Shown here piece after piece: positions 56,719-64,000 of a stretch of 64,000 bases of DNA. Origin of the DNA: Clostridia bacterium. Lineage in GTDB: Bacteria; Bacillota; Clostridia; Christensenellales; Borkfalkiaceae. The notes under the pieces were generated by a model. It had not been told where the DNA came from. It saw only the letters and a list, made by a program, of their open reading frames with translations, and made no database searches. The DNA is taken from contig JAFTTJ010000020.1 of assembly GCA_017466825.1 (NCBI GenBank), positions 97,094-161,093 on the forward strand, in the 5' to 3' direction. How positions within the stretch are numbered: the stretch's first letter is position 1; every line of letters starts with the position of its first letter. A program made the translations under genes and the position numbers.

Positions 56719-57147
56719 ATGTATTTTTCTGGCGAGCAAGCCCATCAGCTTGATTCTAAAAACAGAATAAGAATTCCCGCCAAATACAAGAGCGAAATCT
56801 CTGAAAAGTTAGTTTTCAGTAAAGGCGTTACTCCTTGTATTTACGTGCTTCCTTACAGCAAATACGCTGAAATGGTTGACAAGTTCGATAAACTTCCACC
56901 TTTTTCAAAAGACGTTCAACTTGCAATATCAGCTTACATGTCCACCTTTGAAATTTTAGAAGAAGACAATCAAGGTAGAATACTTCTTCCGCAATCTCTC
57001 TTAGAGTATGCGGGCATTAAAAAGGAAGTCGTTACCGTAGGCGTTAGGGATAGGCTTGAAATTTGGGGCGCTGAAAAAAGGGAAGAAGTTCTCGGCAAAA
57101 AATCTTTCGAAGATTATATGGCAATTCTTTCGGATAGGTTATCGTAA
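56719..57147 (+). CDS. mraZ: Division/cell-wall cluster regulator MraZ
   Basis: AbrB-like DNA-binding protein, 142 residues, that represses its own operon. Motifs HQLDSKNRIRIPAKYK and the second repeat LEEDNQGRILLPQSL are the two swapped-hairpin modules. The ATG 56719 behind AAGGAGG is chosen; an upstream TTG frame start is ignored. Its stop overlaps rsmH by 1 bp (TAATG). Confidence 0.95.
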   Translation: MYFSGEQAHQLDSKNRIRIPAKYKSEISEKLVFSKGVTPCIYVLPYSKYAEMVDKFDKLPPFSKDVQLAISAYMSTFEILEEDNQGRILLPQSLLEYAGIKKEVVTVGVRDRLEIWGAEKREEVLGKKSFEDYMAILSDRLS

Positions 57148-58082
57148 TGGAATTTAAGCATTATTCGGTTATGAAGGAAGAGTGCTTGCAAGGTCTTGAT
57201 ATAAAACCCGACGGGATATATTTTGACGGCACGCTCGGCGGGGCGGGGCACTCGTACGAAATCTTAACTAGGCTTACGGGATGCGGAAAGTTAATCGCAA
57301 CCGACCTTGATACCGACGCCATTGCAAACGCTAAGAAAAAACTTGCCGAATTTGATGGTAAATTCGAACTTTTCAACGATAATTTCAAAAATATAGCAAG
57401 CGTTTTAGACGAACTTAACATATCGCAAATAGACGGTATATTGATCGACCTTGGCGTTAGTTCCTACCAGCTCGACAATAGAGAAAGGGGTTTTTCATAT
57501 TTGAGCGACGACGTAAGGCTTGATATGAGAATGGACCAAAATCAAGGCAAAAGCGCTTGGGAAGTAGTCAATTATTACGAAAAATCAAAACTCGCGTATA
57601 TCTTTTCGGTTTACGGTGAAGAAAAGTTTGCCGAAAATATTGCAAAGAATATATGTGAAAAAAGAAAGGTAAAACCAATCGATACCACGGGCGAACTCGT
57701 TAGGATAATAGACGAGAGTATTCCTTACAAGTTTAAACAAAACGGACACCCTGCTAAAAAGGTTTTTCAAGCGATAAGAATTGAGGTAAACGAAGAATTA
57801 GACGGGCTTGCCGAATGTTTAAAAACCATGGTAAAACGCCTTAAAAAAGGGGGCAGGTTAGTCGTTTTAACCTTCCATTCGTTAGAAGACAGAATAGTTA
57901 AGCAAACTTTTAAAGATTTAGAAACCGACTGTATATGCGACAAGCGTTTTCCAATCTGCGTTTGCGGAAAGAAGAGGGAAATAAAAATACTTACTAAAAA
58001 GCCGATTGAAGCGAGTGAGACCGAAATTAAAGAAAACTCGCGTTCACACAGCGCAAAACTTAGAATTATCCAAAAAATTTGA
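57147..58082 (+). CDS. rsmH: 16S rRNA (cytosine-1402-N4) methyltransferase RsmH
   Basis: SAM-dependent methyltransferase (old name MraW), 311 residues. GxGGH motif GTLGGAGHS, LIDLGVSSYQLD, and the conserved LTFHSLEDRIVK. Translationally coupled to mraZ. Standard second gene of the dcw cluster. Confidence 0.96.
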   Translation: MEFKHYSVMKEECLQGLDIKPDGIYFDGTLGGAGHSYEILTRLTGCGKLIATDLDTDAIANAKKKLAEFDGKFELFNDNFKNIASVLDELNISQIDGILIDLGVSSYQLDNRERGFSYLSDDVRLDMRMDQNQGKSAWEVVNYYEKSKLAYIFSVYGEEKFAENIAKNICEKRKVKPIDTTGELVRIIDESIPYKFKQNGHPAKKVFQAIRIEVNEELDGLAECLKTMVKRLKKGGRLVVLTFHSLEDRIVKQTFKDLETDCICDKRFPICVCGKKREIKILTKKPIEASETEIKENSRSHSAKLRIIQKI

Positions 58083-58113: not shown

Positions 58114-58656
58114 ATGTATAATAACAAGAAAAGCAACACTTTAGTAGCAGAAAAAGTAACCACCACTTCTATCGACGAATTGTTGACCTTTGATTCGGTA
58201 GACGTACAAGAAGTTAAAACGGGCGTAAAAGCATATCAAACGCCCACTATTGAATATATTGAAGAAGAACAACGCGAGGAAACTGCCGTTTATGAAAATT
58301 TAGACATTATGCCTTCGTCTACTACTTTGCAATTCAGTAAACAAAACCCCGAAGTTCGCCAAGAAGTTGAAAAGGCTCAAAAGACCAAAAAGACTACGTC
58401 TGATAAAGATTATTCTTTCGGCACTAAGGCTAAAATTTTGGTTGCAGTTTACGCTCTCGTTATCGTAACCATTTTATCGCTCATTATGATCAATTCAAGA
58501 TTGCTCAAAAATCTCGATAGCACTATCGGTAATTATTCTTCGCAAGTTGCCGACTTAAACGAAGAATATAATCTCGTTATGGAAGAACTTGAAGAAGTAA
58601 AGAGCGACGAAGAAATCATCAAAAAGGCTCTTGAAATGGGTATGGAAAAAGCATAA
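58114..58656 (+). CDS. ftsL: Cell-division protein FtsL-like
   Basis: 180-residue bitopic membrane protein. A long cytoplasmic N-terminus (about 105 residues, acidic) precedes one helix (KILVAVYALVIVTILSLIMI) and a short coiled-coil (LDSTIGNYSSQVADLNEEYNLVMEELEEV). The position between rsmH and the class B PBP identifies it. SD GGGGAGAAAG. It recruits the divisome septal synthase. Confidence 0.85.
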   Translation: MYNNKKSNTLVAEKVTTTSIDELLTFDSVDVQEVKTGVKAYQTPTIEYIEEEQREETAVYENLDIMPSSTTLQFSKQNPEVRQEVEKAQKTKKTTSDKDYSFGTKAKILVAVYALVIVTILSLIMINSRLLKNLDSTIGNYSSQVADLNEEYNLVMEELEEVKSDEEIIKKALEMGMEKA

Positions 58657-58668
58657 TTTGGAGATATT

Positions 58669-60249
58669 ATTATTAAAAACTTAAACTTAAATATTTTACG
58701 AAAGAGGTTATTTGCGCTCGTTTGCGCGATAACCTTTATTTTTTTGTCAATTTCATTAAGAGTGTTTTATATTCAAATCGTTTGGGGGGACGAGTTACAG
58801 TCAAAGGCGATAGACCAATGGACGAGAGAACTGCCCATAATTGCCAGCCGTGGGCTAATTACGGATAGAAACGGCGTAGTTTTGGCGGGTAACGAGCAGT
58901 CTTACGCCGTTTTCATAAGAACTAGGTCGGTTGTAGATCCCGTTCTCGTCAGTAACACACTATCTAAGTCGCTGGGAGTAGACGAAAAGAAGTTGTACGA
59001 TAAAATTCTTTCGACTAAAACTTCCGAAATAACCGTAAAACGTCGAGTTGACAAACAGACTGTGGAAAAACTTAACGGGGCAAACTTAAACGGCGTATAT
59101 TTTTCCCCTGACAACACGAGATATTACCCTTACGGCAACAGTTTAAGTCAAGTTCTGGGTTATACGTCCATAGATGGGCACGGGCAAAGCGGTATTGAAA
59201 GGTATTACGACGAGTATTTAAGCGGTTACGACGGTGAAATTTTATACGAAGCCGATCTTGTCGGCAAGGATATTCAAGGCAAAAACGCACGTTATATTTC
59301 CGCTACTGATGGACTTACGGTAAAACTTACGATAGATTACGAGTTGCAGAGTATTTGCGACGGCGCGGTTGCCAAGGCGTATGCCGAATACGTGCCGAAG
59401 TCCGCCGCAGTCATATTGCTAGATCCGTCAAACGGACAAATTCTCGCAATGAGTCAAAGCCCAAATTACGATTTAAACGACTTACCGAGAGACGATTTAC
59501 AACTTTTAAACAAGTTGAGTAGATGTTCGCTTATCGTCGACTCTTATGAGCCGGGGTCTACTTTTAAGGTTTTGACTGCCGCTGCCAATATAGAAGAGTA
59601 TTTAAAGGGTAACCCCAACGCATTCTCACTTGAACATATATTCAATTCGAGTAGATATAGATACGTTGACGGAAAAAAGATAAAGTGTTGGAGCACTCAC
59701 GAAAAGGGAAAACACGCAAACGAAAATTTAGCAATGGCTTTAAATAACAGTTGCAACCCCTGTTTCGTCGATATAGCCCTTTCGCTTGGTAAAGATAAGA
59801 TATACGAATATATAACGGCTTTTGGCTACGGTCAAGCCACGGGCGTAGATTTTGACGGTGAAGCGCTAGGAATGTTAGTGCCAAAGAGCGCGGTAAAAAA
59901 CGGCGATCTCGCAAGAATAGGCTTTGGCCAAACGATTGCCGTTACGCCCATACAACTCGCTTGCGCAACGGCTTGCGCTATAAACGGCGGTTATTACTAC
60001 GAGCCTTATTTAGTAAGTGAAATAAAGGACTCGCAAGGACGAATCGCCGAGATGATAAACCCAAAATTAAAAAGGCAAGTCATAAGCGAAAAAGCGTCTA
60101 AAATACTTGCCGAATATCTCGAAGGGGTTGTTGCAAACGGTAGCGGAAAACAAGCCTATATCGAAGGATATAAGGTGGGCGGAAAAACGGGTGTTTTTGG
60201 TCTTACTTGTGTAATAATAGCAATGAAAAAACGGGGTATAATGGCATAA
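58669..60249 (+). pseudogene. Class B penicillin-binding protein (FtsI/SpoVD type), cut after the KTG motif
   Basis: Transpeptidase that cross-links septal or spore peptidoglycan, interrupted by a mobile element. Start is probably ATT at 58669 (or 58672) behind GGAG (58660-58663). The first TTG (58744) would cut inside the membrane helix (LFALVCAITFIFLSISLRVF). Dimerisation domain, then catalytic STFK (PGSTFKVL), SNC-type (LNNSCN) and finally KTG in VGGKTG at 60184-60192. The natural Thr and the C-terminal about 100 residues (plus any PASTA) are absent; foreign residues VFGLTCVIIAMKKRGIMA close the frame. About 526 residues instead of 600-700. Confidence 0.9.
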
Positions 60250-60372
60250 AAACCATCAAAAAATGCTCAAAATCGTAAAATTACAAAAAAAATCAAGCAA
60301 AAAAAGCCCAAAAAGGTAGGAGGGCACAAAAATAGACAAATGGCAATAAATGCCTAAAAAATAGTATTTTTC

Positions 60373-60400
60373 AAAGAACACAAGATCGTGTTCTTTTTTT
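60373..60400 (+). terminator. Hairpin/terminator before the first element gene
   Basis: Stem AAAGAACAC (60373-60381)/GTGTTCTTT (60388-60396) with AAGATC loop and T run, just upstream of SD AAGGAGGT. It can stop read-through from the PBP operon or act as an attenuator. Confidence 0.75.
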
Positions 60401-60418
60401 GTTTCTAAGGAGGTCTGT

Positions 60419-61432
60419 ATGAGTTGTTTAATGAAATTTAAGTGGGTAAAGTTACCGAGAGAAATAATTCCCCAAAAGAAGGGAATTATGGGTTATTGGA
60501 TGAAGCTTGCATCACGTGTTGCTTTTAGAAAAGGAGAGTCTTTTTATAGTGGGCACACAAATCAAGTTGAACCAGGAGAGTGGGTCGGTGGCATTATGGG
60601 ACTAAAGAGCATTCTTGGAGTTAAATCAAAAGAGAAAGTCTTTGCGATAATGGAAAAGCTTTCTGAACTTGGATATATTACATACACATTGGATTTAGAG
60701 ACAAGGAAACTAAGTTATAAGATTTCAGATTGGGTAGTAGAATGTTGTGGTAAAGAATGTGAGAAAGATAATGTCTACGCTACTAATGATTTTGGCTTCG
60801 TTTGTGTGCCTAGAGATATAACGGAAAGACTTGTAAAAGCTGGACATGAATTTGAAGAATCCGATGCTTGGATTGATCTTTGGGTACATACAATTTTTGA
60901 AGATAAAAAAAATTTTTTAACTTTTTTTGCTCCGATGGTGAGATTTGACAATTTAAAAGCCTTTTTTACTTTAGAGGGACTTAGTAGACGCTGGGGCTGG
61001 GAGAAGACAAAAACGTGGAGATTTTTCCAAAAAAACAAGGAGGTGTTTGAATTATATCGTCTTCCTGGTACTTACGGTTGTTTAATAATCAATAAGTTTT
61101 ATCCTTTAAGTAAAAATATAAAATTTCCTACACAAAATGAAATAATCGATTTGATTTATAAAGCTCGTGAAAGTTTGTTAGAAAAAAATATAGATTGCAC
61201 TCACGGTAATTTAGGAAGTCTAATATCAATGATGGATGACGAATTTATAGAATGTGTTATTAAAGGAGAAGAAAATAGCGTTGCACTTTTTTATTGTATA
61301 ATACGCGCGTATATTTCTCCGTGTTGGAAAGGCTTTAAAGTTATTTATGACTGCAATGGAATTTATATATTCAAAAGGGTGGTTATTGATCAAAGAAAAA
61401 TATGCGGTCCTTGTGTCCCTCCGGATACGTAA
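60419..61432 (+). CDS. Element-encoded winged-helix replication-like protein
   Basis: 337 residues, not firmly recognised. The N-terminal region (MKFKWVKLPREIIPQKKGIMGYWMKLA..., GGIMGLKSILGVKSKEKVFAIMEKLSELGYI) has the look of a winged helix of phage or plasmid replication/organiser proteins. The C-terminal half contains DLWVHTIFEDKKNFLTFFAP and helical stretches. Start ATG is 5 nt after SD AAGGAGGT. It may help the element replicate or regulate. No catalytic motif seen. Confidence 0.6.
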   Translation: MSCLMKFKWVKLPREIIPQKKGIMGYWMKLASRVAFRKGESFYSGHTNQVEPGEWVGGIMGLKSILGVKSKEKVFAIMEKLSELGYITYTLDLETRKLSYKISDWVVECCGKECEKDNVYATNDFGFVCVPRDITERLVKAGHEFEESDAWIDLWVHTIFEDKKNFLTFFAPMVRFDNLKAFFTLEGLSRRWGWEKTKTWRFFQKNKEVFELYRLPGTYGCLIINKFYPLSKNIKFPTQNEIIDLIYKARESLLEKNIDCTHGNLGSLISMMDDEFIECVIKGEENSVALFYCIIRAYISPCWKGFKVIYDCNGIYIFKRVVIDQRKICGPCVPPDT

Positions 61433-61449
61433 TCATAGGAGTAAAGAAA

Positions 61450-62067
61450 ATGAAAAAATTTACAGATGAATCAATGTCGGAAGAAAGCAGAAAAATGCTT
61501 AAGTTGCTCGTTAATGGTGGGGTGATAGGAGACGCTAATATTCAGGAAGAAAAACTTCGGGAATTTCGTCAAAAGAAATTAAAAAATGCTTATCATAACA
61601 CCGAACTCTTAATGAAAAATTATCGAAACATTGCATGGTTGTTAGAATGCTTCCCAGATTTTATCGCAGCCGAATTGGATGAACCGTTTGAAAATATAGA
61701 TAAGTTAATAGATCGTTTAGACGTGCAGTTAGCATATGGAAATCAAAAGGTTGAGAATAGGCTTGAAAGTCTTCAAAAAACTAGATTAGTAATAGATAAA
61801 ATTAATGAAGCGCTGTCAATTGTCAAGACCAAACCTAATGGGGGAAATAAAATATATGATGTTTTATATATGACTTATGTTTCTACAGAGCAACTAACAT
61901 TGAATGAAGTCATTTACAGATTAGGTATATCGCGAAAACACTACTATCGACTTCGCAATCAAGGGTTGGCATTAGTATCTCTAAGATTATGGAGTTCACC
62001 GAAAAAAGACATAGATTTTTGGGTTGAAATGCTTATGATATTTGAGAATAAAGAAAACAAAAATTAA
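61450..62067 (+). CDS. ArpU/RinA-like transcription regulator of the element
   Basis: 205 residues starting MKKFTDESMSEE behind AGGAG; the longer frame at 61402 overlaps the previous gene. The C-terminus LTLNEVIYRLGISRKHYYRLRNQGLALVSLRLW resembles the HTH end of ArpU/RinA phage late regulators and related ICE proteins. It may activate the conjugation operon. Family match by pattern only. Confidence 0.62.
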   Translation: MKKFTDESMSEESRKMLKLLVNGGVIGDANIQEEKLREFRQKKLKNAYHNTELLMKNYRNIAWLLECFPDFIAAELDEPFENIDKLIDRLDVQLAYGNQKVENRLESLQKTRLVIDKINEALSIVKTKPNGGNKIYDVLYMTYVSTEQLTLNEVIYRLGISRKHYYRLRNQGLALVSLRLWSSPKKDIDFWVEMLMIFENKENKN

Positions 62068-62085
62068 AACAGTATTAGTTATCGG

Positions 62086-62114
62086 TTGAAATAATTTTTT
62101 ATATTTGATATAAT
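62086..62114 (+). promoter_or_regulatory. Promoter of the 62216 gene
   Basis: TTGAAA at 62086-62091, 17-bp spacer, TATAAT at 62109-62114. The leader carries AGTCT/AGACT hairpin at about 62133-62155. Confidence 0.78.
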
Positions 62115-62215
62115 ATATTAAGTTTCAATCGGCAGTCTAACATGAACGGCAGACTTGTCCAATGCGGATTTGTTTGTCGTTTATTTATGTAAATAGAAAA
62201 ATAGGAGGTATAGCA

Positions 62216-62695
62216 ATGAAAAATAATATATTTACATCAAATAAAACAGATGAATTGTTAAGCCTTCTTAGCGGATATAAAACAGAAAAGCATACATTTG
62301 AAGATAAGGGGTATGATTTTCTTGATGTAGGGCAGTGCTTTATTACAGTTAGAAATCCCGAAGAAGCAAATAATTTATCAATTAAAATAGGAAACGAGTT
62401 CACTTTGTTTTTTGGAGGGTGGCATAAAGAGTATGCTACTGATGAGGGTGGATTCAGTGAGATGGTGCAAGCATTGCAGTCTATACTTAATTGCTCACAA
62501 TGCATATACATGTTAAGTTTAACAAATGCTTCACGTTATACTATAGGACCAGTTTTATCTCATAGAGAACTCAATGAAAAAAGCATAAAAAATATACTAT
62601 ATACTTATCCAGAATTTAAAGGTGTCAAACTGAAGAATGTAAGGTTAAGACTTATTGCTTGGCAAACGGAACACAACAAAGAAGTATGTTTTTAG
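62216..62695 (+). CDS. Element-encoded protein of unknown function
   Basis: 159 residues, ATG 62216 behind SD AGGAGG (the ORF start at 62162 is in the leader). The protein is mixed alpha/beta (FITVRNPEEANNLSIKI, FTLFFGGWHKEYATDEGGF, SRYTIGPVLSHREL) with no family I can name. Its own promoter and position between the regulators and the conjugation genes suggest cargo or accessory role. It has no signal peptide or membrane helix. Confidence 0.7.
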   Translation: MKNNIFTSNKTDELLSLLSGYKTEKHTFEDKGYDFLDVGQCFITVRNPEEANNLSIKIGNEFTLFFGGWHKEYATDEGGFSEMVQALQSILNCSQCIYMLSLTNASRYTIGPVLSHRELNEKSIKNILYTYPEFKGVKLKNVRLRLIAWQTEHNKEVCF

Positions 62696-62742
62696 CAGGG
62701 TTTTATGGAAAATTAAAATAAATTTTTTTAAAAAAACTTAAA

Positions 62743-62775
62743 ATGACACAATAATGACACAAAAGTGATACAAAA
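62743..62775 (+). repeat. Three 11-bp tandem direct repeats
   Basis: ATGACACAATA, ATGACACAAAA and GTGATACAAAA in tandem, ending 6 bp before the -35 of the conjugation promoter. Iteron-like spacing of one helical turn suggests cooperative binding by an activator. Confidence 0.75.
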
Positions 62776-62781
62776 TTGAGT

Positions 62782-62810
62782 TTTACATAGAAATCAATAT
62801 ATGTTATAAT
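62782..62810 (+). promoter_or_regulatory. Promoter of the conjugation genes
   Basis: TTTACA at 62782-62787, 17-bp spacer, TATAAT at 62805-62810. Confidence 0.82.
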
Positions 62811-62839
62811 AGTATCATCAAAAATTGTAATCAAACGAA

Positions 62840-62880
62840 CGCACCGCTTGGGAAATTCATCCTAAACGGTGTTTTTTATT
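62840..62880 (+). terminator. Attenuator-like hairpin before the pilin gene
   Basis: CACCG-C-TTGGG / CCTAA-A-CGGTG stem (one G-U pair) followed by TTTTTTATT, between promoter and first gene; probable transcription control of the conjugation operon. Confidence 0.7.
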
Positions 62881-62903
62881 GACTAAAAAAAGGAGGTAAA
62901 GGT

Positions 62904-63266
62904 ATGCAAGCAGAAAAGCAAAAAGGTGCTTGGATAAAAATTGTATACTGGTCTCTTGTCTTTACTTTCATGGCTATTCTTGTTTGTATGCAAGTAACGT
63001 TTGCAGCAAATGAAACCATGTGGGATAGATTTGAAACCATTATGAACGATTTCTATCTTAAGCTTCTTGGTATCAGTACGATTGTTGCTGTTACCATGGC
63101 AGCAGTTGCTTTAATTGTGAGAATGGTTTCCAGAAACCAAAAAGTAGTAGATGAAGCAACGGCTTGGCTAAAGAGAATTGTAATCACTTGGATTATATTG
63201 AACTCTCTTGGTCTTATTGTAGCGTATGTTCAACCGCTTATTGCGGGTGGCAATTACGCAGGATAA
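62904..63266 (+). CDS. VirB2/TrbC-like pilin subunit
   Basis: 120 residues. An N-terminal hydrophobic segment (IVYWSLVFTFMAILVCMQVTFA), possibly a cleaved signal (A-A-N after it), and two later membrane helices (TIVAVTMAAVALIVRMV, IVITWIILNSLGLIVAYV), the layout of VirB2/TrbC pilins. SD AAGGAGGT. Followed by the VirB6/TrbL-like gene, as in Firmicute ICEs. Sequence family membership cannot be proved by eye. Confidence 0.72.
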   Translation: MQAEKQKGAWIKIVYWSLVFTFMAILVCMQVTFAANETMWDRFETIMNDFYLKLLGISTIVAVTMAAVALIVRMVSRNQKVVDEATAWLKRIVITWIILNSLGLIVAYVQPLIAGGNYAG

Positions 63267-63295
63267 TTCAATCGGTAAAAGGGAGGTGATAACAA

Positions 63296-64000
63296 TTGCT
63301 TGATTGGATGTTTGAAGGGATAGTTGACTGGGTTAGCGGTGTTGTCACAGACCTCATGGACGCTGTTTCCGGATTATTCTTAAATGCGCTCGGTACAGAT
63401 ATGACGGCGATGGAAGAATATTTTCCTTTTGTCGCAAGTGCATTCACCGTGATGCAGTATATGGCGTGGGCGTTATTGTTTTTAATAACAGTGTGGCAAC
63501 TGTTCAAGGCTTTCAGCGGACCACTTGGTGAATCCGAAAATCCTTGGACATTAATTTTTAAGAGTGCACTATTTGCGATATTGATTTATTTTGCTAAACC
63601 TATATTCTTATATATATTGAATATAGCGAAAGCACCATACACGGCACTAATGGATGTGGTTGTGTCTAAAGAACATTTCACGTTTGCTGGAATAGAAGGG
63701 GCTCTACGAAATGGTCTAACTAACTTCATTTCAATGGTATCGGTTGTTGGCGAAATATTAATCCTTATATTAATTATTGCTCTCGGATGGAACTATTTCA
63801 AATTATTGTTGGAAGTAGTAGAAAGATATATCGTTGTGGGCGTTCTTTGTTATACTTCACCATTGGCTTATTCGATGGGTGCGTCACAAAGTACCAGCCA
63901 AGTATTTAAGTCATGGTGTAGAATGGTAGGCTCACAGTTATTACTATTAATAATGAACGTTTGGTTCCTACGAGCATTTAACAGTTCGGTGGGACATTAC
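63296..64000 (+). CDS. VirB6/TrbL-like conjugation membrane protein, 3' end missing
   Basis: TTG start at 63296 behind SD GGGAGGTGAT, in frame to the window end: 235 residues so far. It begins LDWMFEGIVDWVSGVV and has at least five membrane helices (FTVMQYMAWALLFLITVW, LFAILIYFAKPIFLYIL, VVGEILILILIIALGW, ...) and a YIVVGVLCYTSPLAYSMGAS loop typical of the VirB6/TrbL-like proteins of Tn1549-type elements. Likely part of the translocation channel. Confidence 0.85.
   Translation, partial: MLDWMFEGIVDWVSGVVTDLMDAVSGLFLNALGTDMTAMEEYFPFVASAFTVMQYMAWALLFLITVWQLFKAFSGPLGESENPWTLIFKSALFAILIYFAKPIFLYILNIAKAPYTALMDVVVSKEHFTFAGIEGALRNGLTNFISMVSVVGEILILILIIALGWNYFKLLLEVVERYIVVGVLCYTSPLAYSMGASQSTSQVFKSWCRMVGSQLLLLIMNVWFLRAFNSSVGHY

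Follow-up and report, generated by a model that had tools for sequence, protein, structure and literature searches.

The DNA studied here (the window, that is, the whole 64,000-nt stretch, corresponding to positions 97094-161093 of contig C16) carries a class B penicillin-binding protein (PBP) gene that is cut within the codons of its catalytic KTG motif by the left end of an integrated element. Aligned sequences of this and related junctions identify the KTG codons of the gene as a dedicated attachment site, as the earlier note on this DNA had supposed. This assignment is based on junctions that fall on the same base, a core of only GG, dyads around this core in 13 out of 15 end pairings and tandem recombinase genes near the right end. 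We consider it probable that these elements interrupt a spoVD-type gene at the KTG attachment site and that the interruption is reversible by excision.

The window belongs to an assembly (G000) of 1.65 Mb in 39 contigs that is 83.6% complete. All host features discussed here are on the + strand. The dcw neighbour of the target gene is rsmH (mraW; 57147..58082; Pfam Methyltransf_5, E 5e-119), followed by an ORF at the ftsL position (58114..58656), which had no Pfam match and is named by its placement alone, and by the 5' part of the class B PBP gene (spoVD/ftsI-like; 58744..60191), which is host DNA through the GG core. The PBP frame runs past the host part and ends at 60249 (ORF 58744-60249); its start is possibly further upstream, and the stop-to-stop frame comprises 530 aa. 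Pfam recognised PBP_dimer and Transpeptidase domains in this ORF; the Transpeptidase match breaks off at profile position 240 of 299. Both the STFK and SxN motifs are present. The previous claim that the gene is intact up to KTG and then continues into foreign DNA was confirmed: the K, T and G codons occupy 60184-60186, 60187-60189 and 60190-60192, respectively, and are followed by VFGLTCVIIAMKKRGIMA and a stop. This element-derived tail (60192..60249, +, read from the sequence) comprises 18 codons from the end of the Gly codon plus the stop, so the unrelated tail reported before was real; its count of 19 codons includes the stop. PBP relatives of the same genus (67-77% identity over near full length) instead read on as KTG-TAQ, for at least 66 residues where their end could be read. 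Contig C16 stops at window base 64000, which is also the window end, and the right end of the element lies beyond it. The PBP C-terminus was not found in the 83.6% complete assembly. Nor was a SEDS gene found there; considering that the other 29 genomes of that search have at least one, the contig with the downstream dcw genes is probably missing from this bin. An Rfam scan of the window gave 0 matches.

The element part of the window (60192..64000, no strand assigned) is a left end of 3,809 bases that runs on past the contig, and was recognised by its identity to the element of G390, a genome from another genus. The two elements are 97.9% identical over 3,809 nt, whereas the host PBP genes are about 68% identical in their best-aligned stretch, which indicates recent transfer and a separate insertion at the same two bases. 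In the junction alignment, a left dyad arm, TTACTTGTGTAA, lies 11 nt from the core (60203..60214, +); its partner arm, TTACACAAGTAA, is found at the right ends of G390, G365, G353 and G296. Five ORFs follow, all on the + strand. Two of them (60419..61432 and 62162..62695) have no family and are kept in the elements of G036 and G368, and a third (61402..62067) has a weak Pfam match to DUF1492 (E 6e-5). A small membrane-like ORF without family (62904..63266) is part of a conserved block, with the same order at loci L024 and L086, that leads to a VirB4-type ATPase in G036. Only the start of a larger membrane-like ORF, also without family, is present before the contig end (63296..64000); its G036 counterpart has 690 aa. 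Large serine recombinase genes were not seen in the window, which holds the left part of the element only. The evidence for conjugation is partial for this element and comes via its relatedness to the G036 element, whose VirB4-type ATPase scored 290 bits with the CD1110 model (cut-off 325) and 295 bits with the Mbov_0397 model (cut-off 590). In the G036 element, the left end and the conserved block are separated by HipA-like and DUF4143/AAA cargo (L024:3640-7238), which the window element lacks (compare 60192-60419).

The earlier note had proposed looking for elements at the same codon in other genomes; they were found in at least 17 of 398 family genomes and in five others. We searched 398 Borkfalkiaceae genomes with the PBP residues around KTG (370 matched), and 30 genomes with a low best score or divergent result, G000 included, were taken for a second search that showed positions. 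In 16 of these 30, element DNA lies to the right of the KTG codons, and in G348 it was seen only ahead of the C-terminal part, giving a family total of 17 genomes from four genera. As the 30 genomes were chosen by score, 17/398 is a lower bound. The junction base was identical on the left side in 16 family genomes and on the right side in 10, as well as in five genomes outside the family, and the same junction to the base in so many genomes excludes chance. The outside genomes are a sheep-rectum Clostridia MAG (G424) and four Bacilli MAGs (G425-G428, Lapin bins). The missing PBP C-terminus, expected beyond the element, was indeed seen in relatives, and three Bacilli contigs (G425, G427 and G428) carry both junctions with the element whole between the PBP halves. 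In the remaining selected genomes, the contig broke off at the core or no more than 6 nt from it, with no element DNA (G012, G298, G201, G395 and G366), the PBP broke elsewhere than at the core (G400, G111, G411, G301, G126, G356 and G197) or the PBP was a divergent gene (G080). It should be noted that two class B PBP genes are present in G424 (RGIG6143; L129 and L130) and that both are interrupted at KTG, by element ends related to each other; the bin may hold two strains, or a single genome may have two filled sites.

The junctions (22 left and 15 right) were then compared base by base, and the only bases common to host and element ends are GG (60190..60191, + strand, in the window). Thus, a duplicated core around GGT, which the earlier note had proposed to look for, was not supported, and a shared core longer than GG is ruled out by the same alignment. 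On the left side, the base preceding GG depends on the host, and on the right side it is A in 15 of 15 junctions; the base after GG differs between left and right in G331, G353, G365, G376, G425, G426, G428 and G424. With only GG in common and a differing base behind it, the exchange lies within GG. When right ends were compared with the reverse complement of left ends and evaluated against shuffles, a dyad centred on GG was significant (p<0.01) in 13 of the 15 pairings; it was not significant in G345 (p 0.11) and G428 (p 0.055), which counts against the preferred reading. In type A elements, the arms TTACACAAGTAA and TTACTTGTGTAA lie 11 nt on either side of GG, and the Bacilli elements of G425 and G426 have a different arm, 13 nt from GG. 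For G424, one right end served in the pairings with both left ends. In G376 (L079/L072) and G296 (L088/L065), left and right ends of unlike types occur within one genome, which could reflect tandem elements at one site or mixed strains. The ends paired in these three genomes are therefore not proven partners.

The 5' halves of the split genes have kept their reading frame: 22 out of 22 are open with STFK, and SxN was recognised by pattern in 20 and by eye (as SCN) in the two G424 genes. The insertion cuts off the last 66-139 PBP residues. An in-frame ATG, GTG, TTG or CTG start inside the element for the C-terminal part was absent in 13 of 15 cases; an in-frame ATG precedes this part only in G345 and G424 (12 and 15 nt upstream). 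Repair of the gene by element codons was considered and ruled out, the tails having 3 to 27 codons that differ between elements.

Two overlapping large serine recombinase genes are present near the right end, LSR1 (541-554 aa) and LSR2 (470-499 aa). This tandem was found upstream of attR in nine genomes (G036, G331, G345, G365, G424 and G425-G428), with 92 to 3,767 nt between LSR2 and the core (eight measured), and the right end of G365, which has this tandem, is of the type matching the left end in the window. On the other hand, other genes and no recombinase gene precede attR in G390 (3.8 kb) and G296 (3.1 kb), which speaks against the preferred reading. G036, G331 and G365 have a short third recombinase gene besides LSR1 and LSR2. 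Both proteins of G331 and G345 contain Pfam Resolvase and Recombinase domains; a zinc ribbon was found in LSR1 and none was found in LSR2 of these two genomes. LSR2 identity among loci at the KTG site goes down to 41%. The nearest solved structure to LSR1 is TnpX, and its match to the CcrB model was weak (96 bits, cut-off 900); none of the CcrA, CcrB and CcrC models was matched at its cut-off. The best identity of LSR2 relatives among viral contigs was 33% or less, and all relatives of the recombinases in phage (565) and plasmid (62) records were below 60% identity. When named genomes were scanned for LSR2 relatives, 15 loci emerged, three of which are the contigs of G331, G036 and G345; L105, L108 and L109 were left out of the reading of these loci, and in the distant loci L106 and L107 no PBP gene follows the recombinases in the stretch listed. 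A related recombinase pair in G430 has GGTAAAACAGG at its end, and only 25 more bases precede the contig end (L104:7440-7609). These 25 bases would read KTG-FTTKAKRT, which we take to resemble the KTG of a DD-carboxypeptidase, and a related element may thus target the KTG codons of another PBP type. In the right part of the G345 element (L061:4829-5590, at a contig end), a repeat array with a period of 66 lies beside the recombinase genes; its units have ∼36 nt in common and differ in the other 30 nt, which makes it CRISPR-like.

Ahead of LSR1, 10 out of 10 loci share a conserved frame of ∼60 residues (for example, L062:1590-1780). It has a motif like GGTTILEQ..LLLDEME and no Pfam or NCBIfam name above cut-off, and is a candidate directionality or accessory factor. 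Promoters were scanned at two of the 10 loci, L062 and L097. In L062, the recombinase operon has a sigma-A-type promoter (11 of 12 positions), and a 12-of-12 promoter on the opposite strand precedes a helix-turn-helix gene (matched on the G036 copy); seven promoter-like sites were found vs a shuffle mean of 2.3. L097 also has an 11-of-12 promoter, with three sites vs 1.6 in shuffles. A sigma-E-like pair was seen in one of the 10 regions upstream of LSR1, and CATANNNT strings in four of them, all but one of which are from Bacilli. The sequences of the two scanned recombinase promoters point to vegetative, repressor-controlled expression, and with a sigma-A-type promoter in both loci the operon looks unlike a sporulation-controlled switch; given the CATANNNT strings, such control is still conceivable.

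What the insertion means for the host depends on the type of PBP. All of the 30 family genomes analyzed have one class B PBP, which is cut or broken at or before KTG in 12 and whole in 18. A second, weaker transpeptidase (549-787 aa) is present in 29 of them (none in G019), and the two examined are class A proteins with a glycosyltransferase domain. The count of one class B PBP applies to family genomes only, and the Bacilli hosts have further transpeptidases (616-801 aa), which is a point against the preferred reading. Spo0A and SpoIVA were each found in 30 of 30 genomes (25 family genomes and the five outside), and 28 of 30 have a single SEDS gene (three matches in G424, none in G000). The best model for the target is TIGR02214 (SpoVD), with 516 bits for an intact relative and 448 for the window protein, both below the cut-off of 688; with scores under cut-off, the spoVD assignment is drawn from gene context and host genes. 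The PBP gene of G425 is outside the dcw cluster, beside a recJ-like gene and followed by genes other than murE and mraY. According to PMC10693644, C. difficile uses its dcw-encoded SpoVE and SpoVD for sporulation only and builds the vegetative septum with a class A PBP, and an FtsW/FtsI pair seems to be missing from many Clostridia. By this precedent, the target PBP is best read as spoVD-type, dispensable for growth and required for spores. The comparison with interrupted sporulation genes that the earlier note made for the case of spoVD fits the host gene content (Spo0A, SpoIVA and usually one SEDS gene).

According to the preferred reading, both conjugative elements and small cassettes use the KTG codons, mostly in the PBP of the dcw cluster, as their chromosomal attachment site, and LSR1 and LSR2 would catalyse the integration. 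Insertion would abolish transpeptidase function, because the C-terminal residues are removed and an in-frame restart is absent in 13 of 15 cases. A filled site would be tolerated by vegetative cells if the gene belongs to the sporulation type (SpoVD), following the example of C. difficile with its class A septum PBP. Excision at GG would restore the gene and leave no footprint, so that an occupied cell should not complete sporulation before the element leaves.

Several contig ends bear on excision. The 5' contig of G395 stops at GGT and overlaps by its final 141 bases with the beginning of another contig, which continues into the intact gene. A branch of the assembly graph at the core would produce this overlap, 141 being a usual k in MEGAHIT. 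G298 has a contig end and a contig start on GG, and G201 and G366 have one such end each. These ends point to empty and filled sites in one sample, and a strain mixture would look alike. Joined element ends (a circle or tandem copies) were found in 0 of 398 genomes and in 0 viral contigs with a pattern that fits only the Clostridia element types A and B, which is against the preferred reading. It is conceivable, albeit rather doubtful in our opinion, that the elements are plain parasites that use a conserved gene as attB and disable it permanently, the carriers being asporogenous or unfit side branches without any developmental role. Such a scenario agrees with the vegetative-type promoters in both scanned loci, the lack of an excised form in the genomes and viral contigs searched and the minority of carriers (at least 17/398). 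Open 5' halves with STFK (22/22) and the retention of SpoIVA and Spo0A in every carrier tested argue against permanent loss, although recent insertion would give the same picture, and the contigs that stop on the core hint at a mix of empty and filled sites. Extending the preferred reading of a reversible interruption, we tentatively suggest that conjugative elements might have been kept at the KTG codons in two Bacillota classes as a developmental lock: occupied cells would grow and transfer the element, spores would form only after its excision or loss, and occupancy would determine how gut communities divide between growing, transferring and dormant cells.

An unlikely variant is a programmed element of the skin or gin type, in which the recombinase and a directionality factor of the element would be switched on in sporulation for excision. 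The probable sporulation type of the target, the spore genes in all 30 genomes tested and the small frame before LSR1 in 10 of 10 loci as a candidate accessory factor would fit, and gin offers a precedent as a non-phage island with three serine recombinases in gerE (in the portion of PMC5595907 available). However, the sigma-A-type promoters in both scanned loci, the sigma-E-like pair in only one of 10 upstream regions and CATANNNT alone in four do not favor such control.

If the target were instead the essential division PBP (FtsI), filled sites would be confined to non-dividing cells or to one of several chromosome copies, or be quickly lost. This is less probable still. The target is the sole class B PBP in the family genomes tested, lies mostly beside ftsL and rsmH, and also matches the FtsI and PBP2 models at lower scores; yet filled sites form assembled contig sequence in at least 17 family genomes and five others, and the hosts combine spore genes with one SEDS gene, a pattern that goes with sporulation-only roles in C. 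difficile. Finally, although the data come from MAGs or apparent MAGs, many of whose contigs stop shortly past the junction, an assembly chimera is ruled out by the same base in 22 left junctions, along with symmetric element ends, named records from several isolates and assemblies and three genomes with both junctions on one contig, and the replacement of a dead paralogue, raised in the earlier note, fails on the single class B PBP in 30 of 30 family genomes.

Elements that intervene in sporulation genes are known, as described in the accessible parts of PMC10747680 and PMC5595907: skin in sigK, SPbeta in spsM, vfbin in spoVFB, gin in gerE and yin in yabG. Similarly to them, DNA with serine recombinases here splits a probable sporulation gene at a short core, and the B. 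cereus gin island, with three serine recombinase genes inside gerE, is the nearest in kind on the basis of that partial text (PMC5595907). In contrast with these elements, the target is the catalytic KTG of a class B PBP, some KTG elements have a conjugation module, the elements are shared across Clostridia and Bacilli MAGs, and excision in sporulation is hypothetical. Transposons of the Tn4451/Tn4453 type have TnpX, the closest solved structure to LSR1, whereas the KTG elements have two tandem recombinases and one site; to our knowledge, TnpX elements are not fixed to one gene. SCC elements with ccrAB resemble them in having two adjacent large serine recombinases and varied cargo cassettes at one chromosomal gene. 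SCC integrates at the end of rlmH without disrupting this gene, whereas the KTG elements cut their target gene in two. A further likeness is to CD1110/Tn1549-like elements, through the G036 VirB4-type ATPase, which matches the CD1110 and Mbov_0397 models under both cut-offs; in Tn1549, the integrase is of the tyrosine type. Integration in ftsI or spoVD was the subject of no paper among the literature matches listed, and the portion of the PMC10083194 main text consulted mentions no ftsI, and penicillin only in culture media. The target with its catalytic codons, the sharing of this site by conjugative and cassette forms, and the spread over two classes are new here. The site lies within the codons for the active site of a cell-wall transpeptidase and is used by a diverse family of elements in several genera and two classes. 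Should the target be SpoVD, filled sites would be natural mutants that show whether uncultured gut bacteria can divide without a class B PBP, and skin-type elements would have a conjugative counterpart in the KTG elements. Genetic tools might also be made from the recombinase pairs, given their two-base core and protein-coding attB.

Conjugative elements and small cassettes form one KTG-targeting family. The G425 element (37.5 kb) has a MobL relaxase, a coupling protein (T4SS-DNA_transf) and a TraG-type ATPase and qualifies as an ICE, and those of G427 (11.2 kb) and G428 (5.6 kb) have no conjugation genes that could be recognised by eye. The cargo of the G425 element includes DNA modification defence genes of the Ssp/Pbe/BrxP type (L123:3284-14814), and the left part of the G426 element carries a BREX gene set (L128:2784-18286).
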